Positions 1 to 16,736 of a DNA stretch of 39,725 bases are shown here, piece by piece. A program made the position numbers and the translations under genes. The notes below the pieces were generated by a model that was not told the DNA's origin, did not search any database, and saw only the letters and a program-made list of their open reading frames with translations. The stretch comes from Lachnospiraceae bacterium (lineage in GTDB: Bacteria > Bacillota > Clostridia > Lachnospirales > Lachnospiraceae). Position 1 is the stretch's first letter; each line of letters starts with the position of its first letter. The stretch spans positions 1-39,725 of the forward strand of contig JAFZLB010000012.1 in the NCBI GenBank assembly GCA_017551665.1. Direction: 5' to 3'.

Positions 1-2
1 TG

Positions 3-533: not shown

Positions 534-1738
534 GCACTGTATCAATTGTGATACCGATTTATAATTCTTCGCCATTCTTACGAATGTGCATAGGGTCAAT
601 TGTTCGCCAGACCCATGATGACATAGACGTTGTTTGCGTGGATGACGGGTCAACAGATGATTCGGTTTTGGTATTAGAAGAATTTGCAAAAAAAGATTCC
701 CGCATAAGGATTATTTGTAACGATAACGAACATAAAGGTGCTGCTGGTGCAAGAAATCGCGGGCTAGAAGCTGCCAGGGGACAGTATGTGATTTTTTTAG
801 ACAGTGATGATTTCTTTGATTCTCGTATGATCGAGACGTTGGTTCAGAAAGCAGAGGATACGAAAGCGGAAATTGTAGTATGTACTGGGCAGGCGTATGA
901 TAATGAAAGAGAAAGGGTGGTTGGTAAAATGCCCCATCCCGATTTGGAATACGTTCCAGAAGGGAGTTATTTTAACTGGAAATCGTGCGCAGAGTACATA
1001 TGCGAGATTGTTGATAACTACTCGTGGAACAAATTGTATAAAAGGTCTTTTTTGACTGAAAATAAATTGGATTTTACACCGATTCCTGTCTCTGAGGATC
1101 AGTATATATCTATGATAGCTCCTGTTTTGGCAAAAAGAATTGCGGTAGTAAAAGAAGCGTTCATCAACTATCGAATCAATACGGGGAATAGTTTATGTGA
1201 TTCAAAAGCCAGTTTTCCCACAGGAGCATATGAAGGAACATATAGGGTACTGAAACAATATAAAGAACTGGGTGTTTGGAGGCATGTCAAGCAGAGTTAC
1301 CTTAACGTGGCACTCCGGCTGATGAGAGAATACTTTGACAGTATGCCGGAGTATTCAAAGGCACTGTTCTTGTATAATAAATATCGGGATGAGATCTTTC
1401 CGATGTTGGAGGCAACTGACTTACCGGAGGATTATTTTCATGATAACAGGGTCGGGGATTGGTATCGCATGATCACAAACGCGTCATTCGGTGAAATAAT
1501 GTTTGAAGCAGCAAGAGCGTCTGGGAGCATAATGACGACAGCGTCTTTACGATTCCGGGTACCATATGAGAGAATAAAGAAGAATAGTCGGGTTGTTCTT
1601 GTCGGTAAAGGACTGGAAGGAAGATATTGGTACTCTCAATTATTGCTATCAAATCATTGTGAGGTGGTTTGTTGGATAGATAAAATGGACGAGATTCCAA
1701 AGGGCGTTGTATTTGATGAAGTCATCGAGGTGGGGTAA
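530..1738 (+). CDS. GT2-family glycosyltransferase with short Rossmann-like C-terminal tail
   Basis: 402 residues. The N-terminus VSIVIPIYNSSPFLRMCIGS, then VDDGSTDDS and FLDSDDFF (DxD-type metal/nucleotide-sugar site near residues 90-93), is the classic GT-A fold of family 2, so it probably adds a sugar to a growing surface polysaccharide on the cytoplasmic membrane face. No membrane segment is evident. From about residue 349 there is a second module (VVLVGKGLEGRYWYSQLL) resembling the start of a Rossmann fold, but it stops after about 50 residues and is shorter than the equivalent module in the gene before. The start overlaps the preceding stop (ATGA). The stop is followed one codon later, in the same frame, by the TTG start of the next gene. 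Substrate cannot be inferred. Confidence 0.85.
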   Translation: MSTVSIVIPIYNSSPFLRMCIGSIVRQTHDDIDVVCVDDGSTDDSVLVLEEFAKKDSRIRIICNDNEHKGAAGARNRGLEAARGQYVIFLDSDDFFDSRMIETLVQKAEDTKAEIVVCTGQAYDNERERVVGKMPHPDLEYVPEGSYFNWKSCAEYICEIVDNYSWNKLYKRSFLTENKLDFTPIPVSEDQYISMIAPVLAKRIAVVKEAFINYRINTGNSLCDSKASFPTGAYEGTYRVLKQYKELGVWRHVKQSYLNVALRLMREYFDSMPEYSKALFLYNKYRDEIFPMLEATDLPEDYFHDNRVGDWYRMITNASFGEIMFEAARASGSIMTTASLRFRVPYERIKKNSRVVLVGKGLEGRYWYSQLLLSNHCEVVCWIDKMDEIPKGVVFDEVIEVG

Positions 1739-1741
1739 ACA

Positions 1742-2836
1742 TTGTCATATTATATTTTTGGCGCGAAAGCAACAGCTACCGGATTGTACAAGGCGTTATC
1801 TGTGTTGAGACCGGAAATAACCATAAAGGCGTTTCTGGTATCCAAACAGGACGAAAACTTGAATTCTATTTGGGGCTGTCCAGTAAGGTCAATATTTGAT
1901 GTTTCAGATGGCCTCTCCGATGTTGAGAAACAGCAAGCTCAAGTTTTTGTTGCTGTGCCTGAACTAATACATACCGAGATAGAGGCTGTTATCAATCAAT
2001 GCGGTTTTTACAACCTAATAATGATTGATTCCCATTTGGAAGCGAAGATCATGGGGGAGTATTATGATGTTGAGGGAAGGTTTCGATCGGTTAGAAAACT
2101 GGATGCGGTTCAATCGAAACCATTACCGGCGGTGACGATGTATCAGGCGTGTTTTTATCTTGATAAGCCGCTGAAAAACCAACCATCACTCCTAGAGTTT
2201 CACAAAACGCTATATCTGGGGTGTTATGGTGCAAAAGAAAGCGGTGTCGATATTAATGGAAAAGCAGATTACTATGATAATACAGGGGATAATATTTCCC
2301 AACTTAACCATCTCCGTTGTGAGATGACAGCTCATTATTGGATATGGAAGAATAAGCTGGATACATTGGATGAATATGTTGGAGTATGCCATTACAGGAG
2401 GCTTCTTGATTTGACGGATGATGATATAAGGCGAATTAAACAAAATGATGTGGACGTTGTATTACCTTATCCTATGCTACATTATCCCAATTCACAAATC
2501 CAGCATACATGGTACGTGGAAGAAAAGGATTGGATATTGACAAAAAAAGTGGTGAAGGAATTATATCCAGAATATGGAGAAAAGTTTGACGAAGTTTTTT
2601 CGCAACACTATTTTTACAACTACAATATACTGCTCGCAAAAAAGAAAGTTTTTTCTGATTACTGTTCTTGGCTATTTCCGATTCTTGACAGGATTGAGAA
2701 GCTATCGAATCCAAGAGGAGAGGAGCGGAATGACAGGTATACTGCCTATCTGAGCGAAAGCCTTGAAACGCTCTATTTTATGACAAATATGAATGATCTG
2801 TGCATTTATCATACTGGAAAACTGTTGTTTGTATAA
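1742..2836 (+). CDS. DUF4422-family glycosyltransferase with N-terminal Rossmann-like domain
   Basis: 364 residues. Residues 1-105 form a Rossmann-like module (YYIFGAKATATGLYKAL, then FVAVPELIHTEI). From about residue 130 the sequence matches the DUF4422 glycosyltransferase type: LYLGCYGAKE, DNTGDNIS near residue 180, YWIWKN, and the HYRR motif in VCHYRRLLDL. Such proteins occur in capsule and exopolysaccharide loci and are thought to transfer hexoses. The start is TTG, three bases after the preceding stop, with GAGGTGGGG as a good ribosome site; the next ATG would remove the N-terminal fold, so TTG is preferred. A truncated relative with the same domain order lies at 12213-12905. Donor sugar unknown. 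Confidence 0.8.
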   Translation: MSYYIFGAKATATGLYKALSVLRPEITIKAFLVSKQDENLNSIWGCPVRSIFDVSDGLSDVEKQQAQVFVAVPELIHTEIEAVINQCGFYNLIMIDSHLEAKIMGEYYDVEGRFRSVRKLDAVQSKPLPAVTMYQACFYLDKPLKNQPSLLEFHKTLYLGCYGAKESGVDINGKADYYDNTGDNISQLNHLRCEMTAHYWIWKNKLDTLDEYVGVCHYRRLLDLTDDDIRRIKQNDVDVVLPYPMLHYPNSQIQHTWYVEEKDWILTKKVVKELYPEYGEKFDEVFSQHYFYNYNILLAKKKVFSDYCSWLFPILDRIEKLSNPRGEERNDRYTAYLSESLETLYFMTNMNDLCIYHTGKLLFV

Positions 2837-2864
2837 TCTGGAGAACGTTGCGGAGGAAAAAAGG

Positions 2865-4226
2865 ATGAGAATAGCTGTTATTGGAACAGGATATGTAGGG
2901 CTTGTTACTGGCACGTGTTTTGCAGAGATGGGAAATACAGTTTGGTGCATAGATGTTGATAAAGAGAAGATAGGGAATCTGAAGAAGGGAATTATTCCTA
3001 TATATGAGCCGGGTCTGGCAGAAATGGTTCAGAAGAATCAAGAGCGTGGGAGTTTGAAATTCACAACTGATATTGCAGAAGCATTGGAAACGGCGAACAT
3101 TGCTTTTGTAGCAGTTGGAACTCCAATGGGAGAGGATGGATCGGCTGATCTTCAATATGTGCTTGTTGCTGCAAAGGAAATCGGCGCGAATATGAAGCAT
3201 CATATGTGCGTGGTGAATAAGTCCACGGTTCCGGTTGGTACAGCAGTAAAGGTGAAAGAGAGTATACAGGCGGAGCTTAATAGGAGAGATTCAAATCTGA
3301 CTTTTGATGTGGTCTCAAATCCGGAGTTTTTGAAGGAAGGGAACGCGGTTACAGACTGCATGAAGCCGGATAGAGTTGTAATCGGCGTGGATTCTGATAG
3401 GGCAGAAGCTATTATGAGAGAACTATATAAGCCGTTTTTTATGAACAACGATAACCTCATCTTCATGGACATCCCCTCTGCAGAAATGACGAAGTATGCG
3501 GCAAATTGCATGCTGGCGACAAAGATATCGTTCATGAATGAGATTTCCAATATTTGCGAGAGGGTTGGCGCAGACATAAACAAGGTGCGCCGAGGCATTG
3601 GATCTGATCGGCGAATAGGTTTTTCGTTTATCTATCCAGGTTGCGGTTATGGTGGGAGTTGTTTTCCTAAGGATGTACAGGCATTGATCAAAACCGCAGG
3701 AGACTTTGGATACGAGTCAAAGCTTCTTCAGTCGGTGGAAGATGTGAACCATGCACAAAAGAGCGTGATAGTCCGAAAGGTGAAAGAGAGGTTCGGGGAA
3801 GACTTGAGCGGAAGGGTGTTTGCTGTTTGGGGATTAGCGTTTAAACCGGATACGGATGATATGAGAGAATCGCCTGCAATTACAGTTATTACGTTATTGA
3901 CATGTGCGGGGGCGAGGATTCAAGCTTACGATCCCAAGGCGATGAAAGAAGCTAGGGAGTGTTATTTGAAAGGTAATGAGTATATTACGTATTGCAGTAA
4001 TAAATATGAGGCATTAAAGGAAGCGGATGCGTTAATTCTTATTACAGAGTGGAAGGAGTTTCGCAGTCCGGATTTTTATGAAGTAGGGAGATTGCTTAAA
4101 ACACCCATTATTTTTGACGGAAGAAACCAGTATGACAAAAAACGTGTTGCGGAATATGGCATAGATTATTATCAGATAGGGGTAAAACCGTATGTCACAG
4201 ATAAGGTTGAAGGGGGTGTGAGATGA
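2865..4226 (+). CDS. ugd: UDP-glucose 6-dehydrogenase
   Basis: 453 residues. It oxidises UDP-glucose to UDP-glucuronate with two NAD+. The N-terminal NAD-binding motif [10 protein letters not shown], the KSTVPVGT and NPEFLKEG segments, and the catalytic loop [10 protein letters not shown] with the active-site Cys at residue 266 are all present, and the length fits the family. The ATG at 2865 follows GGAGGAAAAAAGG and starts exactly at the nucleotide-binding strand; the longer frame from 2793 would overlap the preceding gene. It overlaps the UDP-xylose synthase gene by ATGA, so UDP-glucuronate made here is probably consumed at once by the next enzyme. A second, differently diverged dehydrogenase of the same superfamily lies at 18680. 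Confidence 0.93.
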
Positions 4227-5167
4227 GAAAAAGAATACTTGTTACTGGCGGAGCGGGGTTTATAGGATCGCATCTGTGCACCCGACTGGTGGACGAGGGA
4301 AGTGATGTCATTTGTGTAGACAATTTCTTTACTGGCTCTAAGGAAAATGTTAAGCCACTGTTGGATAAGCATAATTTTGAACTGATCCGCCATGATGTTA
4401 CGAAGGAGCTTCTGTTGGAGGTGGATCAGATATATAATTTGGCGTGTCCGGCATCTCCTGTGCATTATCAGTATAATCCGGTAAAGACGATAAAGACTTC
4501 AGTTATGGGGGCAATCAACATGCTGGGTTTAGCAAAAAGGGTGAAGGCAAGGATATTACAGGCATCTACAAGTGAGGTTTATGGTAATCCCGTTGTTCAT
4601 CCTCAACCGGAGGAGTATTGGGGAAATGTGAATCCTATTGGCATTCGTTCCTGCTATGATGAGGGAAAAAGAGTTGCGGAAACCCTATTTTTTGATTATT
4701 ATAGGCAGAATGGAGTGGACATCAAGGTAATACGCATATTTAATACCTATGGCCCGAATATGAGTGCAGAGGATGGCCGCGTTGTATCCAACTTTATTGT
4801 GCAAGCGTTAAAAGGGGATGATATCACTGTTTATGGAGATGGGACACAAACGCGAAGCTTCTGCTATGTGGATGACTTGGTAGAAGGAATGATCCGAATG
4901 ATGAACAGCAGAAAGGGTTTTACTGGACCGGTAAATCTGGGCAATCCCGGGGAATTCACAATGCTGGAGTTAGCAGAAAAGGTGATCAAATTAACAGGGA
5001 GTAATTCAAAAATTGAGCATAAGCCATTACCTCAGGATGATCCTGCACAGAGAAAGCCTGAAATTGCCTTGGCGAAGAAAGAATTGGGATGGGAACCGAT
5101 GATAGAACTGGATAAAGGATTAGAGAAGACAATAGACTATTTTAGAGTAAAGGTGGCTTTGCAGTAA
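4223..5167 (+). CDS. UDP-glucuronate decarboxylase (UDP-xylose synthase)
   Basis: 314 residues, short-chain dehydrogenase fold. [10 protein letters not shown] (residues 7-16) is the NAD site and Y145-x3-K149 (CYDEGK) the catalytic pair. Further UXS-type motifs are [30 protein letters not shown] and [13 protein letters not shown]. The enzyme decarboxylates UDP-glucuronate to UDP-xylose, a donor for xylose in the surface glycan. It shares an ATGA overlap with the UDP-glucose dehydrogenase gene, giving a complete two-step route. It is the last gene of the + strand polysaccharide run; a convergent terminator-like hairpin follows at 5344. Related epimerases (GalE, RmlB) lack the [10 protein letters not shown] signature, so the call is firm. 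Confidence 0.9.
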
Positions 5168-5227
5168 AGCATGGGCTTTCTGTTAGGCTATAAATGCTAA
5201 TCTAAAAGTGAGCTACTTTGCATCGTA

Positions 5228-5251
5228 GCCGTTTTGCTTCGCAAAACCGGC
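5228..5251. other. Small intergenic hairpin
   Basis: GCCGTTTTGC and GCAAAACCGGC pair with one bulged base around a TTC loop. It is in the 253-bp gap between UDP-xylose synthase and the convergent dehydrogenase. No T-run follows directly, so terminator function is doubtful; it may be part of a dispersed intergenic repeat. Nothing else in 5168-5343 is recognisable. Confidence 0.3.
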
Positions 5252-5343
5252 TTATGTAGGCCGCCATATGCAATCATGTATGCAAAAAACAGACGTTCTC
5301 ATAAGGGAAGTGGAAACGATCATTTTTGGTTTATTTGAGAGAC

Positions 5344-5377
5344 GAGTCCATATTTTTTGCGCAAAAAGTATGGACTC
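5344..5377. terminator. Convergent terminator-like hairpin
   Basis: GAGTCCATA pairs perfectly with TATGGACTC. The 14 bases inside (TTTTTGCGCAAAAA) are themselves palindromic, so one long hairpin with a tiny loop can form on either strand. It lies between the + strand UDP-xylose synthase (ends 5167) and the - strand dehydrogenase (ends 5421), as expected for a shared terminator. The tail after the stem is only moderately T-rich. Confidence 0.5.
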
Positions 5378-5420
5378 ATTTTGGAAATATGTCGTTTTTT
5401 GCAGAAAAAACAAAAGGAGT

Positions 5421-6575
5421 CTATAAAAGAGAAGATGCCGAAACCATTATCTTCCCGTAAGGCTCCGTCTTGTCCCGCATAAGGGAGAGTCCCTTTGGCA
5501 AATCCGCAAGCGGAAGGCGGTGTGTGATCAGTTCCGCAGGGTGGATCCTGTGCGTGGAGAGGCGCGCGGAGACATATTGCCAGTCGTCCGTTGCATCGTT
5601 CTGACGGTTTTCTTTCCCTGCTTCCGCTTCCGGGAAGCAGGGGTTGTCCATTAGCGCATGTCTGCCAATCGCGAAAGAGGAATTCCAGATGCCGTGTAGC
5701 GTCAGTTGACGGCGGGGAATCTTCCAGTAGAGCTCCTTGGGTAACAGGATATCGGAGGCAGGATTGCCGACGAGCGTCACCGTGCCCATCGGGGCACAGG
5801 AATCCACGGTCAGCGCAATCACCGGCGCGGTGCCCACACAGTCAAAACAAAAGTCCGTGCCCCTGCCGTCCGTCTGCTCCGCAAGGAAGGCAGCGGCATC
5901 CGTGAAACGCGTGTCACAGAAGCGCTCCGGTGCGAGGCCGAGGGCGATGCAACGTTCTTTTTGAAAACGCTTGTTGCCGATTACGTACAGATTCTTCTGT
6001 CCTGCCTCCAGTAAAAACATTACGAGCAGAAGGCCGATTGTGCCTGCTCCGAAAACAGCGGCGGACGGAGAAGATATATCGTTATTACGAATGCGATTAT
6101 TCAAAATACCGCTCATCCGAAGAGCGTGAACCGCGACTGCCATCGGCTCATACATGGCGGCTTCTTCAAATGACACGGTATCGGGAATGGCAATCAGATT
6201 GGCGGCCGGAACACGGACATATTCCGCGAAGGCACCGTCACAGCGGCTGCCAAGGTAATCATAGTGTGTGCAGGTTTCATAGATGCCCGCCCGGCAGGAG
6301 TCGCATTTCATGCAGGGGAGCAGAGGAAAAACGCTGACTCGTCTGTGCTCCCAGGCGGCATCGACAGCGGAACCTGTCCGTATAACCGTCCCCGAGAATT
6401 CGTGACCCGGGACACAGGGCATGTTGTGTGTGCCGGTGGTAAATACACGTGGTACGTCGGAGCCGCAGATCCCGCAGCATTCCACCTGTAGCAGAACGTC
6501 ATGATTTCCGATGACCGGTTCTTCCCTTTCCTCAAAGCGGAGATCCCCCGGTGCGTACAGAACCTGTGCTTTTAT
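5421..6575 (-). CDS. Zinc-dependent MDR dehydrogenase (GatD/TarJ-like); apparent start codon is ATA
   Basis: Medium-chain dehydrogenase, 384 residues if read from codon 6575-6573. Catalytic zinc ligands Cys37 (CCGICGSD) and His58-Glu59 (PGHEF), the four structural-zinc cysteines 88, 91, 94 and 102, and a nucleotide-binding FGAGTIG are all present. The run LLPCMKCDSC...YLGSRCDGAFAEY is closest in style to galactitol-1-phosphate dehydrogenase GatD; TarJ, which reduces ribulose-5-phosphate to ribitol-5-phosphate, is another member of the superfamily. The neighbouring epimerase and IspD/TarI-like gene favour a pentitol-phosphate role. Oddity: homology clearly extends upstream of the first GTG (6485) to the usual K-A-Q-V-L-Y opening, but the codon where ATG belongs is ATA, seven bases after GGAAAGGA. 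It lies 24 bases after the rpe stop. Confidence 0.8.
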   Translation of the reverse strand: MKAQVLYAPGDLRFEEREEPVIGNHDVLLQVECCGICGSDVPRVFTTGTHNMPCVPGHEFSGTVIRTGSAVDAAWEHRRVSVFPLLPCMKCDSCRAGIYETCTHYDYLGSRCDGAFAEYVRVPAANLIAIPDTVSFEEAAMYEPMAVAVHALRMSGILNNRIRNNDISSPSAAVFGAGTIGLLLVMFLLEAGQKNLYVIGNKRFQKERCIALGLAPERFCDTRFTDAAAFLAEQTDGRGTDFCFDCVGTAPVIALTVDSCAPMGTVTLVGNPASDILLPKELYWKIPRRQLTLHGIWNSSFAIGRHALMDNPCFPEAEAGKENRQNDATDDWQYVSARLSTHRIHPAELITHRLPLADLPKGLSLMRDKTEPYGKIMVSASSLL

Positions 6576-6599
6576 GGCAATGTCCTTTCCGGCAGCGTT

Positions 6600-7322
6600 C
6601 TATCGCCGCCATCCCGCTCGCAGATGCGTGTGTGGCATACTGTCCGTATTGATGCCTTTAAAATCCAGCACACGAATTTTTCGGATGATTTCCGCGTAAG
6701 AAAGCTTCTGCCCAAAGAGCAGTGTTGAGCCAAGCACAAAACCGGCCATCCCTTTCGGCGCATACTGACTGATTTTGTCCGCGCTGCAGGCACCGTCCCA
6801 GTACAGACCAAAGTCCCGCTCCTTTTGTAATTCCAGAAGACTCTCGATTTTTTGTCCGACATAGGGCAGATACATCTGACCGGCATGGCCTGGATTGACG
6901 CTCATGACGAGGACCCGTTTGACAATGTGAAGCATTTCGGTGATGGTCTCGACGCTGGTGGCGGGGTTGATCGCGAGTCCCGGAATCATCCCCGCGTCAA
7001 TGATACGCTGCAGCGTTGTTGACGGATGATACTCCGCCTCCGGATGAATGTAGACTGTGTCGCCCGGCCGCAGGGCATGCAAAAACAGATTGATATTGTT
7101 CAACGGATGCTCAATCATCAGATGCACATCCAGCGGCTTTTTCGTTGCTGAGGCAATATATTCCATGTCATAGAGAGACATGGCGAAGTTCTGGACGTAG
7201 CGGCCGTCCATTATGTCAATATGAAAGCTGTCGATGCCGGCGCTTTCAAGTGCACGTACCTCTTCTTCCAGATGTCCGTAATCGGCACACATCATGGATG
7301 CCATCAGTTCGAATCTTTGCAT
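6600..7322 (-). CDS. Ribulose-phosphate 3-epimerase family protein
   Basis: 240 residues, TIM barrel. It would interconvert ribulose-5-phosphate and xylulose-5-phosphate, or a related ketose phosphate. Visible features: SMMCADYGHLEEEV, metal-site residues in FHIDIMDG (His34, Asp36), DVHLMIEHP (His67) and SVNPGHAGQ. The late catalytic Asp is in WDGAC rather than the usual DGG, so this is a divergent, polysaccharide-locus type rather than clearly the housekeeping enzyme. The ATG at 7322 follows AAAGGA and starts at the conserved strand. It precedes the zinc dehydrogenase by 24 bases and probably supplies its substrate. Its first 67 bases and its promoter are duplicated at 12906-13147. The last ~15 residues are a non-conserved tail. 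Confidence 0.83.
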   Translation of the reverse strand: MQRFELMASMMCADYGHLEEEVRALESAGIDSFHIDIMDGRYVQNFAMSLYDMEYIASATKKPLDVHLMIEHPLNNINLFLHALRPGDTVYIHPEAEYHPSTTLQRIIDAGMIPGLAINPATSVETITEMLHIVKRVLVMSVNPGHAGQMYLPYVGQKIESLLELQKERDFGLYWDGACSADKISQYAPKGMAGFVLGSTLLFGQKLSYAEIIRKIRVLDFKGINTDSMPHTHLRAGWRR

Positions 7323-7382
7323 ACAGGCCGTTTCCTTTCTGTTTGAAACTGGTATCATTCGCAGATCTTTGACACCAATACA

Positions 7383-7391
7383 ATCATATCA
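7383..7391 (-). promoter_or_regulatory. Extended -10 promoter for rpe and the dehydrogenase
   Basis: Read on the - strand, TGATATGAT has the TGn-TATGAT form of an extended -10 element, about 60 bases upstream of the rpe ATG. No good -35 is visible, which extended -10 promoters can tolerate. The same element recurs in repeat copy 2. Confidence 0.4.
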
Positions 7392-7453
7392 CAGTGGCGC
7401 AAAAACGTGTAGTGCGGCGTTTTTGGCGGCAATCTTATTGCGTGGTCCTCTTT

Positions 7454-7482
7454 TTGCGGAAGAGAGGTGTTTTTGGTAAAAT
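7454..7482 (+). promoter_or_regulatory. Sigma-A-type promoter reading into the inserted cassette
   Basis: TTGCGG, 17 bases, TAAAAT, pointing right, ending 24 bases before the small ORF at 7507. An identical element in repeat copy 2 (13113-13141) precedes the cytidylyltransferase, so the repeat gives both the cassette and the original gene a promoter. Confidence 0.5.
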
Positions 7483-7506
7483 AAGGATGATGAGGGGGGA
7501 TAATAC

Positions 7507-7620
7507 ATGAAGCAAACGTATCTAACAAATAGAGCGGTATGGCGAGAAGTATGTATTCATGTTTGGGATCTTAATAAAATAATCAGAGCCGTCATATCAA
7601 AAAGAGGAATATCGCCATGA
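7507..7620 (+). CDS. Small ORF, 37 residues, overlapping the AAA gene start
   Basis: Too short for routine gene calling. ATG at 7507 follows a strong GAGGGGGG ribosome site, and its TGA (7618-7620) overlaps the ATG of the AAA-nuclease gene at 7617. The product begins MKQTYLTNRAVWREVC and contains IIRAVISKRG; no family is recognised and no membrane helix is obvious. It could be a genuine small protein, a leader peptide coupling translation to the ATPase, or the remnant of a larger gene cut by the repeat-associated rearrangement. Only the ribosome site and the ATGA overlap support it. Confidence 0.35.
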   Translation: MKQTYLTNRAVWREVCIHVWDLNKIIRAVISKRGISP

Positions 7621-9212
7621 AACGCTTTAACACAACTGGGGTTTGCATACCGGAAAAACACTATATGGTTGATCTGACGGATCGTGTCCGGGAGATTAAA
7701 AAGCTTGTTGATGACGGTAAGTACTTTACCATCATCAAAGCAAGACAGTACGGGAAGACGACCACGCTGAGTGCCTTAGAGAAAGCACTATGCGAAGAGT
7801 ATGATGTGATTAGCATTGATTTTCAAGACGTTACAGGCATAGATTTTGTAGATGAGTATGGATTTGTCAGGGGATTGGCCGGAGCCTTGTGCGACGTCGT
7901 AAATGGAACGGCTATTTCCGCATCAGAGGAAAATGCCACAGCATTGAATAAAATGGCATTTCAAAATGACGAGGCAAAACTGAGTGATATCTTCAGAATC
8001 CTCGACTCGATATGTAAAGAGGCTCAACGTCCTGTTGTTTTGATGATTGATGAAGTTGATACTGCAGCAAATAATCAGGTCTTTCTTGATTTTCTTGGAA
8101 AGCTGAGATCGGGCTATATAAAAAGAGAAAAGAATCCAACCCATAAAACCTTCCAATCCGTTATCCTGGCGGGCGTGACGGATGTCAAACACCTGAAGCG
8201 TAAGATCCGGGACGAGGATCAGCATAAAGTGAACAGCCCATGGAACATTGCTGCGGATTTTGATATTGACATGAGCCTGTCAGAACCCGGCATCAAGGGC
8301 ATGCTTGATGAATACGAATCCGATCATCATACGGGAATGGACACGGGTGAAATTGCAAAGCAGATCAGAGCCTATACAAGCGGGTACCCGTATCTGGTCA
8401 GCAGAATCTGTCAGAAGATTGATGAGAATCTTGTGCCCGAGGTGTTCGGGACGCTTTCGGAGGTATGGACTGTATATGGCGTGGATGAGGCGGTGAAGCA
8501 GATTGTATCGGAGGAGAATACGTTATTCGATTCCGTCATGGGAAAACTGATCAATTATCCGGAGTTGAAGCAACAGCTTCGCAGGGTTCTTCTCAGGGGT
8601 GAGACGATCGCATATGTGCCGGATAATGAGGAACAGAAACAGCTGAAGATGTATGGTTTCATCGTAAACCATCAAAATTCCGTGGCAATCTCCAACAGAA
8701 TATTTGAGATGCGCCTGTACAATTATTTCATCGGTGAGAGTCGGGCCAATGAAGAATTAAAGCAGAGTGCGGCGGCGTCAAGGTCCATATTTGTCAATCA
8801 GGACGGATGGCTCGATGTTCCGAAGATCATGGACCACTTTATCAGGGAACATAACAGAATCCATGGAGAAAACACGGAGCGGTTCGTTGAGGCGGAGGGA
8901 CGTGAACGCTTTATCACGTACATTTCCGGTATCATAAACGGAACCGGCACCTACAGCGTGGAGGAGCAAACCAGAGATCAGAAAAGAACCGACCTGGTGA
9001 TACACTATCATGGTAGGAGATACGTCATAGAGCTGAAAATCTGGCGTGGGGAGCGATACAACGCCGACGGAGAAAAACAGATTCTGGAATACCTGGATTA
9101 TTTCGGCCTCGATACAGGATATTTGTTGAGCTTCAACTTCAATCAAAAGAAAACACCCGGCGTGGAGCGGATTCAGATCGGCGGTAAGACAATCTTTGAG
9201 GGGATTGTGTGA
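7617..9212 (+). CDS. AAA-like ATPase with C-terminal PD-(D/E)XK-type nuclease motif
   Basis: 531 residues. Residues 41-49 (KARQYGKTT) form a Walker A of the RQxGKT style seen in AAA_35-like domains, and PVVLMIDEVD near 140-149 is Walker B. A helical region with GYPYLVSRICQK follows, as in STAND/ORC-like ATPases. Near residue 458 comes TDLVIHYHGRRYVIELKIW, which fits the Asp...Glu-x-Lys core of PD-(D/E)XK nucleases, so the protein may combine ATP sensing with DNA cleavage. Proteins of this kind are common, poorly characterised accessory genes in anaerobes. GAGGA eight bases upstream supports the ATG. A second copy at 10776-11954, about 3.0 kb downstream, is nearly identical in parts but has lost both catalytic ends. 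A defence role is inference. Confidence 0.75.
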   Translation: MKRFNTTGVCIPEKHYMVDLTDRVREIKKLVDDGKYFTIIKARQYGKTTTLSALEKALCEEYDVISIDFQDVTGIDFVDEYGFVRGLAGALCDVVNGTAISASEENATALNKMAFQNDEAKLSDIFRILDSICKEAQRPVVLMIDEVDTAANNQVFLDFLGKLRSGYIKREKNPTHKTFQSVILAGVTDVKHLKRKIRDEDQHKVNSPWNIAADFDIDMSLSEPGIKGMLDEYESDHHTGMDTGEIAKQIRAYTSGYPYLVSRICQKIDENLVPEVFGTLSEVWTVYGVDEAVKQIVSEENTLFDSVMGKLINYPELKQQLRRVLLRGETIAYVPDNEEQKQLKMYGFIVNHQNSVAISNRIFEMRLYNYFIGESRANEELKQSAAASRSIFVNQDGWLDVPKIMDHFIREHNRIHGENTERFVEAEGRERFITYISGIINGTGTYSVEEQTRDQKRTDLVIHYHGRRYVIELKIWRGERYNADGEKQILEYLDYFGLDTGYLLSFNFNQKKTPGVERIQIGGKTIFEGIV

Positions 9213-9231
9213 TCGAAAACAACGAATTCTA

Positions 9232-9260
9232 TTGACTTGACTGTGGATAAGTGGGATAAT
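9232..9260 (+). promoter_or_regulatory. Promoter for the ATPase/TOPRIM pair
   Basis: TTGACT, 17 bases, GATAAT, close to consensus, 44 bases upstream of the ATG at 9305. The pair therefore appears to be an independent transcription unit inside the cassette. Confidence 0.6.
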
Positions 9261-9304
9261 TAATCAAAATCGCAGGCCAAATCACCGAAAATCGGAGCAA
9301 TCAC

Positions 9305-10630
9305 ATGATCATAAAAAGCATATCCGTTGGGAACTATAAGAACATTCCTGTTACGACATTTTCGTTTTCAGGTATGATTGCGCTTGTTTCAACCAACAAC
9401 TTCGGAAAATCTAATGTATTGGAAGCAATTCAACTTGGGTTCGATTTCATTTCTGCATCGCCAAAAACGCGTGATTCCATGATGCGGTATATACCGGGAA
9501 TACCACTGTCCAATGCACTGGCGGGAAAAGAGTTTGCCTTTTCAATTGAAGTGGATATACCGGAACTGGGGGAGAACCGGTTTGTGCGGTACGGATACCG
9601 GTTTTTCTGGCTGAGCGATGGTGAACGCGGTGCGAGGATTACGGATGAGACACTTGAAATACGTCCGAGTGAGGCGGTACGTTATACGGGTTATCTGAAA
9701 CGGAAAGAGAGTAAGTGTCGTACCAGCAAGTCCAATCAAAACTACCGCCGGATCGGGCTTGCGGATAATGTGTTGGCAATTGATGCGATGCTGTCGATTG
9801 ACGGATTAGAAATTGCAGAAGTGATACGTCGGATTCAGCAGCTAAGCTATCGTATATGCAGTAAACTGGAGTTAAGTAATTCGTTTTTACCCATTGAAGT
9901 CGGCATGCGGGAAGTATCGGACTACCCGACGGACGACAGTGATATTCCAAGGGCACTGCACTATTTGCAACAGGAAAGGCCGGATCAATATGCATTGTTT
10001 TTTGAAGCAATTTATGAGCTGTTTCCCGAGTTTCAGCAGGTGGAGTTAAATGAATACGTTGTCCGGAGAGAAAAGACGGATGTGCCGGATGCATTGCGTG
10101 TGGAGCATATTGATGCAAAGGGTAAAACCGTCAGCGAGGAGATCCCGTTCCGTATCAGAGATGATATATACCGGATTTTGATTTTCAGCAAATACCTGAA
10201 TCAGCCGCTCAGCATGGAGAAAATGTCAACCGGAACCAAACGCATTTTTTGGCTGCTTGCAAATGCGGTATTTGGTAACAGTTACGGTGCAAACCTGATT
10301 GAAGTGGATGAGATAGAAACCAGTATTCATCCGAGGATGATGAGAAATCTCTTGAGGACATTACGGGAATTGATGGGAGATACTGCAATGATGATTACCA
10401 GCCATTCGCCGTATCTTGTGCAATATTTTAAGCCGGAGGCATTGTATATCGGCGTTCCCAATCATGAGGGAATTGCGGTCTTTCGGAGAGTGGACGCTTC
10501 CCGTGTAAAGAAAATGGAAAAAGCCTCCGGAGATATGGGGCTTGCAATTGGCGAGTATATCTTTGAATTATTGTCCGGAGATGAGGATTCCACGGAAGTG
10601 CTGCGCTCGTATATGGAGCGTGCGCAATGA
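9305..10630 (+). CDS. OLD/AriA-like ABC-type ATPase (AAA_15/AAA_21)
   Basis: 441 residues. The N-terminus IKSISVGNYKNI leads to a P-loop STNNFGKSNVLEAI (29-42), a variant of the GxNxxGKSN seen in OLD/RecF/SMC-like ATPases. A signature region MSTGTKRIFWLLAN, Walker B LIEVDEIETSIHP (near 331) and TSHSPYLVQYF (near 365) complete an ABC-ATPase head. Many relatives pair with a TOPRIM nuclease in anti-phage systems (OLD, Gabija, PARIS AriA/AriB). Here the stop overlaps (ATGA) a TOPRIM-like ORF that breaks off after about 85 residues. The ATPase itself looks complete. It could be a sensor left without its effector. CGGAG eight bases upstream supports the start. The defence role is inference from family and layout. 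Confidence 0.75.
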   Translation: MIIKSISVGNYKNIPVTTFSFSGMIALVSTNNFGKSNVLEAIQLGFDFISASPKTRDSMMRYIPGIPLSNALAGKEFAFSIEVDIPELGENRFVRYGYRFFWLSDGERGARITDETLEIRPSEAVRYTGYLKRKESKCRTSKSNQNYRRIGLADNVLAIDAMLSIDGLEIAEVIRRIQQLSYRICSKLELSNSFLPIEVGMREVSDYPTDDSDIPRALHYLQQERPDQYALFFEAIYELFPEFQQVELNEYVVRREKTDVPDALRVEHIDAKGKTVSEEIPFRIRDDIYRILIFSKYLNQPLSMEKMSTGTKRIFWLLANAVFGNSYGANLIEVDEIETSIHPRMMRNLLRTLRELMGDTAMMITSHSPYLVQYFKPEALYIGVPNHEGIAVFRRVDASRVKKMEKASGDMGLAIGEYIFELLSGDEDSTEVLRSYMERAQ

Positions 10631-10896
10631 CAGTTTCATATCGCAGGGGGTATGCGTTTGTGCTGGAGGGGGACACGGAAAAAGTGTTCTACCTTTCTTT
10701 GTTACGGTTTCTGGCGGAAAAACATGGGGCGAAATTGGAAAGAATCGTTGATCCTGATACACCGGATGTTGTTTATTGCATAAAAACAGGAGAAACGACA
10801 GACCTGATAAAGATGCATACCGTGAATGCCATCAGTCAGATGCCAAGAGCCGGGAACTGGGTCAATACACAATGCATCAGGCGTTTTGCCGTTTGA
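10627..10896 (+). pseudogene. TOPRIM-domain effector, 5' fragment
   Basis: An 89-codon frame overlapping the ATPase stop by ATGA. It opens with YAFVLEGDTEKVFYLSLLRF, whose Glu14-Gly-x-Thr-Glu matches the first TOPRIM motif (EGxTEk), and continues plausibly through LIKMHTVNAISQMPRAGNW. The DxD half of the TOPRIM site and the rest of a normal 200-300-residue partner are missing; around 10870-10900 the sequence passes into a second copy of the AAA gene in another frame. In OLD- or PARIS-like pairs the TOPRIM protein is the nuclease, so this system is probably inactive. Too little remains to tell DUF4435-like from other TOPRIM families. Confidence 0.65.
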
Positions 10897-11954
10897 TTAT
10901 AAAACGGAAGAGCACCATCTCCGCGCTTACGGAAGAAATGGAAAACAGGGTGCGCAGATTCGCGGACCGGGAAGATCCGGAGAGCCAGCTGGATGAGTTG
11001 TTTGTTATTCTGCATGACTGGTGTGCGAAATCGGAAAAGCCGATGGTGCTGATGATCGATGAAGTAGACAGTGCAACCAATAATCAGGTATTCCTTGATT
11101 TCCTGGCGCAACTGCGGGACGGATACATTGCCAGGGAATCGGATGGCATTCCGGCCTTCCAATCCGTCATCCTGGCAGGCGTGACGGATGTCAAACACCT
11201 GAAGAGTAAGATCCGGGACGAGGATCAGCATAAAGTGAACAGCTCCTGGAACATTGCGGCGGATTTTGATATCGACATGAGTCTGTCAGAGCCCGGAATC
11301 AAAGGCATGCTGGAGGATTATGAATCCGATCATCACACGGGGATGGATACGGGTGAAATTGCAAAGCAGATCAGAGCCTATACGAACGGGTATCCGTTTC
11401 TGGTCAGCAGAATCTGCCAGAAGATGGATGAGAATCTTGTGCCGGAGGTGTTCGGGACGCTTTCGGAGGCGTGGACGGTATATGGCGTGGATGAGGCGGT
11501 AAAGCGGATTCTGTCGGAAAGCCGGAATCCCCTGTTTGATTCTCTTATGGGGAAACTGGTTAACTACCCGGAGTTGAAAGAAAAACTCAGAGCCATATTG
11601 TTGCGGGGGGAGATACTTCCCTGGCTGCCCTATGATGAAGAGCAGCAACAGTTGTTCATGTACGGCTTTATCCGCAACAATCATAATACCGTTGCGATTT
11701 CCAACCGGATGTTTGAAATGCTTCTGTATACGCACTTTATCGCTGAAAGCGACCGGAACAATGATTTGAGACAGATTGCATTCGGGACAAAATCTGTATT
11801 TGTGGATCAGGACGGATGGCTCGATGTTCCGAAGATTATGGATCACTTTATCAGGGAACGTAACAGAATTCATGGGGAAAACACGGAGCGGTTTGTTGAG
11901 GCAGAGGGCCGCGAACGCTTCATCACCTATGTTTCCGGTATACCAATATACTGA
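10776..11954 (+). pseudogene. Second AAA-ATPase copy, both ends missing
   Basis: The open frame begins inside the TOPRIM fragment, but AAA homology starts only near 10910. From Walker B (KPMVLMIDEVDSATNNQVF) to FITYVSGI it is a close copy of the protein at 7617-9212, shifted by about 3.0 kb. It lacks Walker A and the whole PD-(D/E)XK end, being cut near 11941, where a PIN gene fragment begins and supplies the stop. The middle (DVKHLK...VDEAV) and the last ~45 residues are almost identical between copies, while the stretch between them has diverged clearly. Without P-loop and nuclease it cannot act as the intact copy does. The duplicated ~0.9 kb is a direct repeat able to recombine. Confidence 0.8.
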
Positions 11955-12212
11955 TTTCGTCGCTGATTAGTACAAACGGAACAGCAGCACGTTTTATGAG
12001 GGATGTTTTTGACGGAAAGTATGAAGTGGTCATCACTGAATCCATCTTGTCCGAGTATGAGGAAGTAATGAGACGGCCGCGTTTTCAGATCGATGAAGAC
12101 ATCATCCAATACGCATTGAATTGGTTTGTGAAAAATGCACTTCTTGTGGAAGTGGATGAGACGGATTATCCCGTCAGGGAAATGCCTGATCCTAAGGATG
12201 CGCCTTTTAATG
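11942..12212 (+). pseudogene. PIN-domain toxin fragment
   Basis: Read through the junction the frame gives TNILISSLISTNGTAARFM, then VVITESILSEYEEVMRRPRF and MPDPKDAPF, the pattern of PIN-domain ribonuclease toxins (putative toxin, PIN family). The protein should start with about six residues plus the first catalytic Asp (DTN); the junction with the AAA copy has replaced them, giving Tyr where Asp belongs. The C-terminal half after DPKDAPF is also gone and the frame runs into a glycosyltransferase fragment. An in-frame ATG at 11996 exists but has no convincing ribosome site. No antitoxin gene is next to it. Functionally dead as a PIN nuclease. Confidence 0.65.
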
Positions 12213-12931
12213 GAGAAAACAACCCTGCTGAAATGGACCGGGTATCCGTTTATCATCTTCCGGAACAGAAAAACATACTTCATACGGATGCGGCAGTATA
12301 CCTTGCGATACGGGGGCTATACCACATTGCCGTTGAATCACGTTTAAGGGAGTATGGTTTTACGGAGATCATTCCTGTTACGCCTGAAATGGACATCATG
12401 CTGCGCAACCGGTTTATGGAAGTGGAATTTGCAAGACAGGGACGCTGTTTCGGGAAGTGGAGTGCGGAATCCGGGCTGAACCTCGAACCGGAGTCGTATG
12501 AAAACACGTCCCGCATATATGTTGTAAGATCGGATCAGGACGCAGAGCTTGGAAATGCACCGGAACTGCATCCGTGGGAAGTCATGCTGCAGGCAGGCAG
12601 GTCGCTGAGCGGGACAAACCTTTCCGAATGCCTGCTGGCTGATGATACCGGTGACAACATCTCTCATCGCAACAGACAGTTTTGCGAGCTGACGGCACTC
12701 TACTGGATATGGAAAAACGGGAAAGTGGACATTTCCGGTTTGGAGCATTACAGAAGGCGCTTTCTGCTGCCTCCTGATTGGGAAACGCTGTTTGTAAACG
12801 GGAACGCGGATGTGATCCTGCCTGTACCGCTTTACGTTCACCCTTCGCTTGCGGAAAACTACCGGATGCGTCACACCGTACACACATGGGAGACCATGCT
12901 GCGCTGTACCTCTTCTTCCAGATGTCCGTAA
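12213..12931 (+). pseudogene. Truncated DUF4422 glycosyltransferase
   Basis: In frame with the PIN fragment, so one open frame (11996-12931) spans both. From about VYHLPEQKNILHTDAAVY it shows the end of a Rossmann-like module (YGFTEIIPVTPEMDIMLRNR), then the DUF4422 pattern: DDTGDNIS, FCELTALYWIWKN, LEHYRRRF and HTWETML. Domain order matches the intact gene at 1742-2836, so the two are relatives. The first part of the N-terminal domain and everything after HTWETML are missing. At 12906 the coding sequence is cut by repeat copy 2, and the last residues before the stop are antisense rpe sequence. It is probably the remains of a glycosyltransferase that belonged to the polysaccharide locus. Confidence 0.75.
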
Positions 12932-12972
12932 TCTGCACACATCATGGATGCCATCAGCTCGAATCTTTGCAT
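12906..12972 (-). pseudogene. 5' fragment of rpe
   Basis: The first 22 codons of rpe (MQRFELMASMMCADYGHLEE...) on the - strand, part of repeat copy 2. It retains leader and promoter but runs straight into the truncated glycosyltransferase on the opposite strand, so any transcript is antisense to 12213-12931. Confidence 0.85.
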
Positions 12973-13112
12973 ACAGACCGTTTCCTTTCTGTTTGAAACT
13001 GGTATCATTCGCAGATCTTTGACACCAATACAATCATATCACAGTGGCGCAAAAACGTGTAGTGCGGCGTTTTGGGCGTTTTGGGCGGCAATCTCATTGC
13101 ATGGTCCTCTTT

Positions 13113-13141
13113 TTGCGGAAGAGAGGTGTTTTTGGTAAAAT
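13113..13141 (+). promoter_or_regulatory. Promoter for the IspD/TarI-like gene
   Basis: TTGCGG, 17 bases, TAAAAT, identical to 7454-7482, 92 bases upstream of the ATG at 13234. It is probably the original promoter of the cytidylyltransferase. Confidence 0.5.
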
Positions 13142-13233
13142 AAGGATATCCCGGACATCAGCTTTTGAAATCATGCCGTAATGATGCCGGAGCTGCCGGG
13201 GAAATCAGCAATGAAAACAGTGGGAGACGAGAG

Positions 13234-13986
13234 ATGAACATTGCCATTCTCCTTTCCGGCGGCAAAGGGACACGCGTCCGCTCGGGGATTCCGAAGCAGT
13301 TCATTGAAGTGGAAGGCCACACGATGATCGGTGACTGTCTGAAGACGCTGTTTGCGCATCCGCTGGTGGACGCGGTGCAGGTGGTCGCGGAGGAAAGCTG
13401 GCATGCCTTTATCGAAAAGCAGGCGGCCATCGCTCTGGAACGAAGAAAGGCACCCCGCAGGAAACGGGCGGAAGACAAAGGCCGTTCTCCGGAGGGCAGA
13501 CTTCGCGGCTTTTCCGCGCCCGGCGAAACACGGGCTCTTTCCGTCGTGAACGCGCTGCGTGATTTAAAGAACAGCGCGTCGCCGGAGGACATCGTCATCA
13601 TCCATGACGCCGCAAGACCCTTTGTTTCCGCAGATCTCCTGACGCGGCTCATCGAAGCCGCAGCGGATCATGACGGCGCGTTGCCGGTGCTGCCGATGAA
13701 GGACACGGTGTATCTGCTCCCGGAATCCGGGGAGGAGCAGTTAAAGCTCCTGCCGCGGGAGCGCGTGGTCGCCGGACAGGCGCCGGAGGCCTTTCGCTAT
13801 GGCAAGTATCTTGCCGCGAACGAGGCGCTGTTCCCGGATAAAATCCACGAAATCAAGGGCTCCACGGAGGTGGCGGTGCTTGGCGGCATGGATATCGCCG
13901 TCATCGACGGGGAGGAAGCGGATTACAAGGTCACGAGCGATGCAGACCTGGACCGTTATCGCGGGCAGCTGAGAAGAGATGTATGA
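13234..13986 (+). CDS. IspD/TarI-family cytidylyltransferase
   Basis: 250 residues. Transfers CMP from CTP to a sugar-alcohol phosphate: methylerythritol-4-phosphate for IspD, ribitol-5-phosphate for TarI. The CTP loop LLSGGKGTRVRSGIPKQF (Arg14, Lys21), HDAARPFV, and DYKVTSDADL near the C-terminus are visible. The ending GSTEVAVLGGMDIAVIDGEEADYKVTS resembles the polysaccharide-locus type rather than the isoprenoid enzyme, and the nearby epimerase and GatD/TarJ-like dehydrogenase support CDP-ribitol or another CDP-pentitol as product. An Arg/Lys-rich stretch (RRKAPRRKRAEDKGR) is inserted near residues 70-85. The ATG at 13234 is chosen over the longer frame from 13165 because it follows GGGAGACGAGAG and begins at the conserved strand. 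An isoprenoid role cannot be excluded. Confidence 0.8.
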   Translation: MNIAILLSGGKGTRVRSGIPKQFIEVEGHTMIGDCLKTLFAHPLVDAVQVVAEESWHAFIEKQAAIALERRKAPRRKRAEDKGRSPEGRLRGFSAPGETRALSVVNALRDLKNSASPEDIVIIHDAARPFVSADLLTRLIEAAADHDGALPVLPMKDTVYLLPESGEEQLKLLPRERVVAGQAPEAFRYGKYLAANEALFPDKIHEIKGSTEVAVLGGMDIAVIDGEEADYKVTSDADLDRYRGQLRRDV

Positions 13987-14019
13987 CATTGATGCGAAAA
14001 GTACCGCTGTCGTGCAGTA

Positions 14020-14049
14020 TTGTCCTGCACTTCCGCGATATGATAGAAT
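14020..14049 (+). promoter_or_regulatory. Promoter for the SNF2/SWIM genes
   Basis: TTGTCC, 18 bases, TAGAAT, ending 32 bases upstream of the SNF2 helicase ATG, in the 95-bp gap after the cytidylyltransferase gene. Confidence 0.4.
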
Positions 14050-14081
14050 ATTGGCAATCATAAAAGCCGGAGCCGTAAAAA

Positions 14082-16736
14082 ATGAAAAAGAACAATGAAA
14101 GCACATCCCTGTCCGTAAGGACACAGCCCCTCCATCCCCTCTCCTTCATCTTCACGTCCGATTCCTTCCGCATTGACGAAACCGCTTCTCTTTTGTCGGA
14201 GGAAGATGCGGTACTTCAAAAAGAATTCCTGAAGAACCGGTATAAAGCACTGTTCCGGATCGGGTTCGAAGAAAAAACGACGGGAAGCATGTCCTTCCGT
14301 TTCCTTCAGCGGCTGTCCCTGGCATTTTTGGACGCCCTGTGTGCGCTGCCGGAACTGGAGATCGCAAGGGAACACGCGGAGGTCATACTCACGCAGGAAA
14401 CGGCACAGGAGCTGCTGCGCTCCGTTCCTTTTGTGATCGGTTCGGAGCATATCACGGAAGAGTGGCTGACGGAAATGTTCCGCCGTCTGACCGCCGTCTA
14501 TGCCTACGAAATAACGGAATACGACGGTTCGGTCTCCATGTTCCTTGCGGAGAAGAACGGAAAACTCCGGGTGCCGGAACGTGTCTTTTTTCACCTGGTG
14601 GAAAGCGACGAGGGTCCTGTCCCCTTTGCGTTTCTCGCCACCTATGCCACGAAAACGGAAAGCGGTGCCATCCGGCATATGCCGCTGAAGTATGCCCTCA
14701 CGGAATACAAAAACGAACGGGAAAAGCTGCTTTCCCTGCTGTCCTGCTTAAACAAAGCGGCGGAAGGCTCGGACTTTATCGCGCGGCTTGTGGAAAGCGG
14801 CGAAATGTTTCATCCGCTGCGTTTCACCGCACAGGAAGCCTATACGTTTTTGAAAGACATTCCCGTGATCGAAGAGGCCGGTATCCTCTGCCGCGTGCCG
14901 AACTGGTGGAAACGGCGCACATCTTCCGTATTCATGCGGGTGACAATGGGGGAAAAGAAACCGTCCCTGTTCGGTTTTGAGTCTCTTGTGTCCATGCAGC
15001 CTTCGCTGGTGATCGGCGGTCAGGCCTTGACAAAAAAAGAAATCGAAGCGCTGCTGGAACAGACAGAGGGGCTCCGGTTTTTGAAAGGCAGATGGGTGGA
15101 GGTCAATCACACCCTGCTGAAAGCCATGCTCGATGAAATGGAACAATACAGCGGAGAAATTACGCTGAAGGAAGCGCTGCAGCTTGCGGGAGGCGTACGG
15201 GAAAGTGACGACGCGTTGGATGTCGGACCGCTGATCACAAACGGCAAATGGCTGTCTTCACTGATTTCCGCATTGCAGAAGCCCCAGTCCATGAAACAGA
15301 CGGCCGTACCGAAAACCGTGCGCGCCACGCTCAGGCCTTACCAGAAAACGGGTTACACATGGCTGAAGTATATGTCGGAGCTCGGATTCGGTGCCTGCCT
15401 TGCGGATGATATGGGTCTCGGAAAAACCTTACAGGTGCTGACATTTCTTGACGCGGTTTATCAGAAAAACAAAAAAGCCCGGGTGCTGCTGATCGTTCCG
15501 GCCTCGCTTCTCGGAAACTGGGAGAAGGAGACGGAGAAGTTTGCGCCCCGCCTGCCAATTCAAATTTTGCACGGGCGGCCGAAGCCGGAAATGGAAAAGG
15601 AAATCAAAAGGAAGCCCTGCTTTCTTTCCGTCACAACATACGGGATGGCATTGCGTATGGAAGCCCTGCAGAGCGTCTCCTGGGACTGCCTGATTCTGGA
15701 CGAGGCGCAGGCAATCAAGAACCCGGTTTCCAAACAGACAAAGGCCGTCAAGAAAATGAAGGCGGCGTACCGCATCGCCATGACGGGCACGCCGATTGAA
15801 AACGATCTGTCAAACCTGTGGTCTTTGTTTGATTTTCTGAACAAGGGGCTTCTCGGATCTTCCGCAGAGTTTCAGTCCTTTACCAACCGGCTGGAAAACA
15901 ATCCCGCAGGGTATGACAAGCTGAAATCCATGGTCGCGCCCTTTATTCTAAGGCGTCTGAAGACAGACAAAAGCATCATTGCCGATCTGCCGGATAAGCT
16001 GGAACAGATTGATTATGTCCAGATGACGAAAAAGCAGGTTGTTCTGTACCGGAAGCAGGTGAAGGAATTAGAGGAAAAACTGAATGACAAAAAACTGCAG
16101 GGGATCGAGCGCAGGGGTGTGGTTCTCGGCTATCTGACACGGCTGAAGCAGATTTGCAATCATCCCGACCAGTTGCTTGGCCAAAAGGCATATGAGCCGG
16201 AAGAAAGCGGCAAATTCGTGATGCTGAAAGAACTTTGCGAAACGATCTATGAGAAACGCGAACGTGTTCTTGTCTTCACACAGTACAGGGAAATCACGGA
16301 CTGTCTTTCGGCGTATCTGCAAAAAATATTCGGCGTTGCGGGTCTTGTGATCCACGGAGGGACGCATGTCAAGACGCGGGCAAAGCTGGTGGACGCGTTT
16401 AATGACCCGGATACCTATATTCCTTATATGGTGTTGAGCGTCAAGGCCGCAGGTGTCGGGCTGAACCTGACTGCCGCAAATCACGTCATTCATTTTGACC
16501 GGTGGTGGAATCCGGCGGTGGAAAACCAGGCAACGGACAGAGCCTTCCGCATCGGACAGGAAAAGAATGTTTTTGTCCACAAGCTTGTTTCGGAAGGAAC
16601 GATTGAAGAAAAAATCGACGCATTGATTGAAAGCAAGAAAGAGCTTGCGGAAAACGTGATCGGCGCGGGCGGGGAACGGTGGATCACGGAAATGTCAGAC
16701 GCGGCATTGCTGGATCTCATGCGTCTGGAGGTATAG
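14082..16736 (+). CDS. SNF2-family DNA-dependent ATPase/helicase
   Basis: 884 residues. The C-terminal half holds both RecA-like lobes: LRPYQKTGYTWLKYM (Q-motif region), Walker A DDMGLGKTLQ near residue 440, LIVPASLLGNWEKE, the DEAQ box LILDEAQAIKN near 538, MTGTPIEN, and motif VI QATDRAFRIGQ near 815. About residues 335-370 (LKGRWVEVNHTLLKAMLDE) resemble the SNF2-associated DUF3670 region; the first 300 residues are not recognised. Bacterial SNF2 proteins remodel or translocate on DNA. The partner SWIM-finger gene starts two bases after the stop, a pairing often seen and suggesting a complex. The ribosome site before the ATG is weak. The cellular role is unknown. Confidence 0.88.
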   Translation: MKKNNESTSLSVRTQPLHPLSFIFTSDSFRIDETASLLSEEDAVLQKEFLKNRYKALFRIGFEEKTTGSMSFRFLQRLSLAFLDALCALPELEIAREHAEVILTQETAQELLRSVPFVIGSEHITEEWLTEMFRRLTAVYAYEITEYDGSVSMFLAEKNGKLRVPERVFFHLVESDEGPVPFAFLATYATKTESGAIRHMPLKYALTEYKNEREKLLSLLSCLNKAAEGSDFIARLVESGEMFHPLRFTAQEAYTFLKDIPVIEEAGILCRVPNWWKRRTSSVFMRVTMGEKKPSLFGFESLVSMQPSLVIGGQALTKKEIEALLEQTEGLRFLKGRWVEVNHTLLKAMLDEMEQYSGEITLKEALQLAGGVRESDDALDVGPLITNGKWLSSLISALQKPQSMKQTAVPKTVRATLRPYQKTGYTWLKYMSELGFGACLADDMGLGKTLQVLTFLDAVYQKNKKARVLLIVPASLLGNWEKETEKFAPRLPIQILHGRPKPEMEKEIKRKPCFLSVTTYGMALRMEALQSVSWDCLILDEAQAIKNPVSKQTKAVKKMKAAYRIAMTGTPIENDLSNLWSLFDFLNKGLLGSSAEFQSFTNRLENNPAGYDKLKSMVAPFILRRLKTDKSIIADLPDKLEQIDYVQMTKKQVVLYRKQVKELEEKLNDKKLQGIERRGVVLGYLTRLKQICNHPDQLLGQKAYEPEESGKFVMLKELCETIYEKRERVLVFTQYREITDCLSAYLQKIFGVAGLVIHGGTHVKTRAKLVDAFNDPDTYIPYMVLSVKAAGVGLNLTAANHVIHFDRWWNPAVENQATDRAFRIGQEKNVFVHKLVSEGTIEEKIDALIESKKELAENVIGAGGERWITEMSDAALLDLMRLEV

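Follow-up and report, generated by a model that had tools for sequence, protein, structure and literature searches.

The whole stretch of DNA analysed here, contig JAFZLB010000012.1 of a Lachnospiraceae bacterium (assembly GCA_017551665.1; 39,725 nucleotides, below called the window), contains a cytidine diphosphate (CDP)-ribitol/capsule region in which an accessory cassette lies between two direct copies of the start of rpe, a gene of the ribulose-phosphate 3-epimerase family (Table 1). Leftward-reading rpe is followed by a dehydrogenase gene that we take to be tarJ, for which no NCBIfam model scored above its cut-off. Further left is a rightward run of genes, presumably for a glycosyltransferase-like protein, a DUF4422-like protein and Ugd (named from their translations), and uxs, which has Pfam epimerase matches. 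The right flank reads rightward and comprises tarI, a SNF2 helicase gene and what we take, by likeness to the relative G068, to be a SWIM-type gene, glf, a second uridine diphosphate (UDP)-sugar dehydrogenase gene, hom and lysC. The guanine plus cytosine (G+C) content is 41.5% in positions 1-5167, 54.3% in tarJ-rpe, 46.8% in the cassette, 60.6% in tarI and 53.7-56.9% in the right flank; tarJ-rpe thus groups with tarI and the right flank, apart from 1-5167 and the cassette.

Table 1. Features of the locus, in window coordinates
Feature	Position	Strand	Remarks
uxs-tarJ gap	5287..5408		strong hairpin at 5325-5395; counterpart in G068 located 5' of rpe
tarJ-like zinc-dependent dehydrogenase gene	5421..6485	-	
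rpe	6600..7322	-	ribulose-phosphate 3-epimerase family; Pfam PF00834, 3.9e-47, on the longer open reading frame 6600-7358
repeat copy 1	7256..7488		first 67 nt of rpe (leftward) and 166 bp upstream of it
possible leader reading frame	7508..7620	+	37 codons; overlaps the AAA1 start; translation only
AAA1, full length	7617..9212	+	AAA_35/AAA-ATPase_like and C-terminal PD-(D/E)XK domain (PDDEXK_3), Pfam
OLD/AbiL-like ATPase gene (AAA_21/AAA_15)	9305..10630	+	full length against G013
ATPase partner	10627..10875	+	recognisable over residues 5-83 only; right end approximate
AAA2	10875..11945	+	second copy of AAA1 minus N-terminal (P-loop) segment and nuclease domain; ends approximate
PIN_3 domain fragment	11946..12210	+	profile 29-97 of 115, 22.2 bits, cut-off 27; ends approximate
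DUF4422 gene fragment	12211..12905	+	profile 19-81 of 220, 79.7 bits; left end approximate
repeat copy 2	12906..13147		67-nt rpe stub (22 codons) and upstream block; left of the 86-bp tarI leader
tarI-like IspD-family cytidylyltransferase gene	13234..13986	+	77% identity to G068

The repeated start of rpe

The original prediction described a 233-bp block that recurs as 242 bp in the same orientation with few differences and contains the 5' end of rpe, and local alignment bears this out. The two same-strand copies differ by six substitutions and one 9-bp insertion, which lies in copy 2, so that 227 of 233 aligned positions are identical, with 96 bp as the longest exact match; such length and identity are beyond chance and need no statistics. 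Alignment with two relatives, G068 and G072, indicates that rpe probably starts at the ATG at 7322, as against 7358 in the longest open reading frame (ORF), and it is the first 67 nt counted from this ATG that the repeat includes. Direct reading of the sequence showed both substitutions within this coding part to be synonymous. Queried with positions 7256-7616, the window's own genome returned two places only, namely the two copies.

Between the copies, all cassette gene pieces point one way. The cassette reads as a decaying array, the right third of which is a chain of shortened gene pieces that the original prediction had missed. Repeat copy 2 truncates the right side of the last of these, the DUF4422 fragment, the ORF of which relatives match from residue 64-74 to about 302.

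Both promoter strings named earlier within the repeat are present letter for letter. The rightward TTGCGG-17-TAAAAT agrees with the consensus at 8 of 12 positions, under the 9-of-12 limit of our promoter scan, and its -35 overlaps a terminator-like hairpin found in both copies (-8.8 kcal/mol), which is ordinary against shuffled sequences (z -0.99 and -0.84). The proposal that the cassette acquired a promoter of its own depends on this weakly matching string. The promoter reading left, toward rpe, has the same score and, on direct reading, the TG of an extended -10. Strings reaching at least 8 of 12 number 36 and 32 on the two strands of positions 5150-14100 (8.95 kb), a count in which the repeat copies are included and neighbouring spacings are taken separately. 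Copy 2 of the rpe upstream block lies before tarI and may act as the tarI promoter region. A further string, TAAAATAAGG, resembles by eye the stretch before rpe in G068 and is not relied on.

Gene order in relatives and the orientation of rpe-tarJ

To place this arrangement among its relatives we used 79 genomes of one genus, the window's own included, which appears to contain Butyrivibrio, and 121 fetched loci chosen mainly by rpe similarity (the best 80 of 587). There is some redundancy among the loci (L030 and L121 being one place), and the 68 loci in the following counts are not 68 independent genomes. An rpe gene at over 60% identity was present in 92 of the 121 loci, of which 68 also contained tarI at over 30% identity and 24 did not. 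In every one of these 68 loci rpe and tarI share a strand, with tarI on the downstream side, the two starts being less than 1 kb apart in 58 of them and 8.0 kb apart at most; a count minus L003, L004, L029 and L030 gave 67 of 67 co-directional loci and 22 without tarI. In the genus, tarI matches with E no higher than 0.001 occur in 78 of 79 genomes, many of these matches being distant IspD relatives. The closest other tarI is that of G068, and rpe is slightly nearer to G072 (82%) than to G068 (79%). The order in G068 is rpe-tarJ-glf-tarI-hom-lysC, of which the window keeps tarI, glf, hom and lysC in one direction, and in G072 it is rpe, tarI, tarJ, again co-directional. In L103 (ugd-uxs-rpe-tarI) and L108 (ugd-uxs-rpe-tarJ-tarI) the genes form a single co-directional run. 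No counterpart of the 86 bp before tarI was found among the 121 loci at E 0.1.

These comparisons bear directly on the layout from which the locus arose. Removal of one repeat together with the cassette does yield a divergent rpe-tarI pair, as had been stated; the accompanying proposal that this divergent layout was the original state is not supported by the relatives, where rpe and tarI are co-directional in all 68 loci that contain both. A deletion made on paper need not give the ancestral layout, and relatives are needed for it. The three genes rpe, tarI and tarJ make up what we take to be the CDP-ribitol cluster of capsule or teichoic acid loci, and they are neighbours in many Lachnospiraceae loci; in the window, unlike there, rpe-tarJ and tarI point in opposite directions with 5.9 kb between them.

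The gap between uxs and tarJ offers a second, less secure line of evidence, seen in one relative. 1) Window positions 5287-5387 match positions 2387-2487 of L120, the G068 locus, upstream of rpe, on the plus strand (69% over 101 nt, E 5e-5). 2) The gap and its G068 counterpart align with a score of 46, whereas none of 500 mononucleotide shuffles exceeded 29. 3) Among 93 rpe upstream stretches compared in the plus orientation, G068 scores 46 and the next 25. A sequence located 5' of rpe in G068 and past the 3' end of tarJ here is what would be expected if rpe-tarJ had been inverted, and the co-directional rpe and tarI in all 68 loci likewise make an inversion part of the window's history. Hence, rpe-tarJ was probably inverted in this lineage relative to its relatives.

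We also considered an insertion sequence (IS) as the agent of the inversion, and rejected it: the nearest thing to the G068 transposase in the window's genome is a distant match (C103, 26% identity, E 3.5e-6), and no IS is implicated. The gap itself holds a strong hairpin (-23.2 kcal/mol, z -4.87). A pattern search for it with up to 3 mismatches hit nothing in the window's genome but this hairpin, and nothing in G068 or G072; since the aligned G068 counterpart goes undetected by this pattern too, diverged copies may escape it.

Two further observations concern the surroundings of rpe in these loci. In G068 a DDE-transposase gene lies upstream of rpe (L120, 1-2360), with terminal repeats and small ORFs discerned by eye only. 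In L083 (1-5600) a unit of about 1 kb, made up of one gene plus the sequence preceding rpe, occurs twice in tandem at a spacing of 2.3 kb with 85-91% identity, and a second rpe copy (77-78%) lies beside the repeat; L046 also contains two rpe copies. When rpe start regions in the fetched loci were compared with themselves, L097 and L011 also gave short matches, of 32 nt and, in inverted orientation, 36 nt respectively.

Origin of the duplication and the probable inversion

No transposase, integrase or recombinase was recognised by Pfam in 13 cassette ORFs, five on the plus strand (E up to 0.01) and eight antisense, the latter giving one weak match (DUF6193 at 0.017). Likewise, PHROGs searched with the five plus-strand ORFs returned only families of unknown function, for the ATPase. 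The absence of a visible transposase or integrase, as originally predicted, is thereby upheld. ARAGORN found no tRNA, and neither IS copies nor a tRNA lie at the cassette borders, in disagreement with a composite transposon or a tRNA island. Of the other 78 genus members, 19 matched the query 7256-7616, in each case inside the leading 69 nt, which correspond to the coding start of rpe. Only the window's own genome contains the repeat-cassette-repeat unit, and only here; the others match the rpe start and stretches of the DUF4422 fragment of up to 123 nt. A plasmid search gave one partial match: an AAA gene of Butyrivibrio proteoclasticus B316 aligned with 12% of the query.

With moderate confidence we favour a history in which rpe-tarJ was inverted, an accessory block came to lie at the break and the duplication is a scar of host recombination. 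The ancestral order would have been rpe, tarJ and tarI in one direction, probably after uxs and the hairpin. Inversion of rpe-tarJ in this lineage would then have parted tarI from its operon, with copy 2 of the rpe upstream block now before it; the accessory block sits at the break between rpe and tarI. The 233-bp duplication would be the trace of illegitimate or homologous recombination by the host around that break. The simplest route would be a partial tandem duplication joining the interior of the DUF4422 gene to rpe codon 23, which would yield the DUF4422/rpe junction in one step, either before or after the inversion and with loss of the surplus copy. Dedicated mobility machinery would not be needed. 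Tandem duplication and deletion by illegitimate recombination and Campbell-type integration are general mechanisms that place direct host repeats around an insert without a recognisable transposase, as in the window, where, in distinction to them, the repeats are combined with an inversion; the duplication around rpe in L083 is a related case for tandem duplication. The preference of the original prediction for recombination or duplication over a classical element is supported, since a true direct duplication flanks the accessory segment and no classical element was found. Its accessory segment between direct repeats also agrees with the lower G+C of the cassette relative to tarJ-rpe and tarI.

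Several findings weigh against this history. The rpe upstream block has no alignment to G068 or G072 past the ribosome-binding region, and its G+C of 44% is nearer to the cassette than to rpe; moreover, given their divergence, one of the two copies could come from another strain. The counterpart of the uxs-tarJ gap occurs in one relative only, G068, where an IS and not uxs lies to its left, and the core of the match is palindromic (reverse orientation 41 versus 46; a 35-nt minus-strand match at E 0.026), so that its orientation rests mainly on the longer plus-strand match and is supported, not secure. Gene order varies in any case, with glf between tarJ and tarI in G068 and tarI before tarJ in G072. 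The relatives compared include no same-species strain, with neither an empty site nor an intermediate in view, and several routes, tandem duplication among them, would fit.

Single-crossover, Campbell-type integration, in which a circle from a related strain carried the cassette and a diverged rpe start and the repeats are the products of the crossover, has a limited chance of being correct. It comes near to the view of the original prediction, as the cassette could exit by the reverse reaction, and it would account for direct orientation, the high identity of the copies with synonymous coding differences and the low G+C of the cassette. However, its donor circle would already have needed a junction between the 22-codon stub of rpe and the inside of a DUF4422 gene, the cassette ORFs include no recognised plasmid or phage gene beyond that one partial plasmid match, and the inversion is left unexplained. 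An artefact of assembly or strain mixing is unlikely. In this draft assembly of 118 contigs (91.4% complete), 96 shared exact bases could mislead a short k-mer path, but the six differing positions and the additional 9 bp mean that both sequences were probably in the reads, and neither the chain of shortened genes nor the inversion depends on the repeat. The variability of the region upstream of rpe, with an IS in G068 and AAA1 relatives near rpe in L049 and L075, might be taken to point to a mobile element, so far unrecognised, that carries long direct repeats and has this region as its target. We regard such an element as a very improbable origin, as no recombinase was recognised, the 19 matching genomes of the genus share only the rpe coding start, and the duplications in L083 and L046 involve the rpe copies themselves and do not form a unit like that of the window, related though L083 is.

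On the favoured history of inversion and host recombination the locus looks like real but ordinary genome plasticity, rather than a new kind of mobile element, and offers a case of a conserved capsule-precursor operon split by inversion, with a duplicated gene-start block before the detached gene. Precise loss of the cassette through the repeats, as raised in the original prediction, could occur in principle. That the rpe-start blocks form a reversible recombination pair is highly doubtful; if they did, crossover between them would remove the cassette and bring rpe and tarI into a divergent arrangement with a single intergenic block in common, and CDP-ribitol and defence-like genes would be switched together.

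Accessory genes and their likeness to defence systems

None of the 121 loci matched the cassette leader (7489-7616) at E 0.1, which thus offers no evidence of conservation. AAA1 aligns over residues 1-531 with proteins from L006, L010, L133 and L134. AAA2, the positions of which were derived from alignments, is 92% identical to AAA1 over 300 nt, with 60-column windows ranging from 53% to 95%: patches of 85-95% DNA identity at 8149-8448 and 11155-11454 stand amid stretches of 53-78%. This patchiness suggests past gene conversion between AAA1 and AAA2. The patches also constitute a nested direct repeat, at which recombination could delete the OLD-like ATPase gene.

The OLD-like ATPase was compared with 126 ATPase-type models of PADLOC, and matched HEC-01A (3.5e-21), AbiLi (3.1e-19) and AriA (4.1e-19); matches to several models at 1e-19 to 1e-21 name no single system. 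Of the two genes of a HEC-01/AbiL/PARIS-type defence system, the full-length ATPase is present in the window, whereas the partner is cut at about residue 83 and matches neither Pfam nor PADLOC. In G013 the order is AAA1, another AAA-ATPase, the OLD-like ATPase (47% identity) and the partner frame, which is open over 239 codons there, so that ATPase and partner follow each other as in the window; the G013 partner matched no Pfam (E up to 0.01) or PADLOC (E up to 0.1) model. With the partner cut here and its G013 counterpart lacking a model match, any membership in the HEC-01/AbiL/PARIS group would be tentative. A search of viral contigs with the OLD-like ATPase gave no relative. At L135 (4075-6125) an OLD-like ATPase gene and a 239-codon partner frame without Pfam or PADLOC match are possibly an undescribed two-gene pair.

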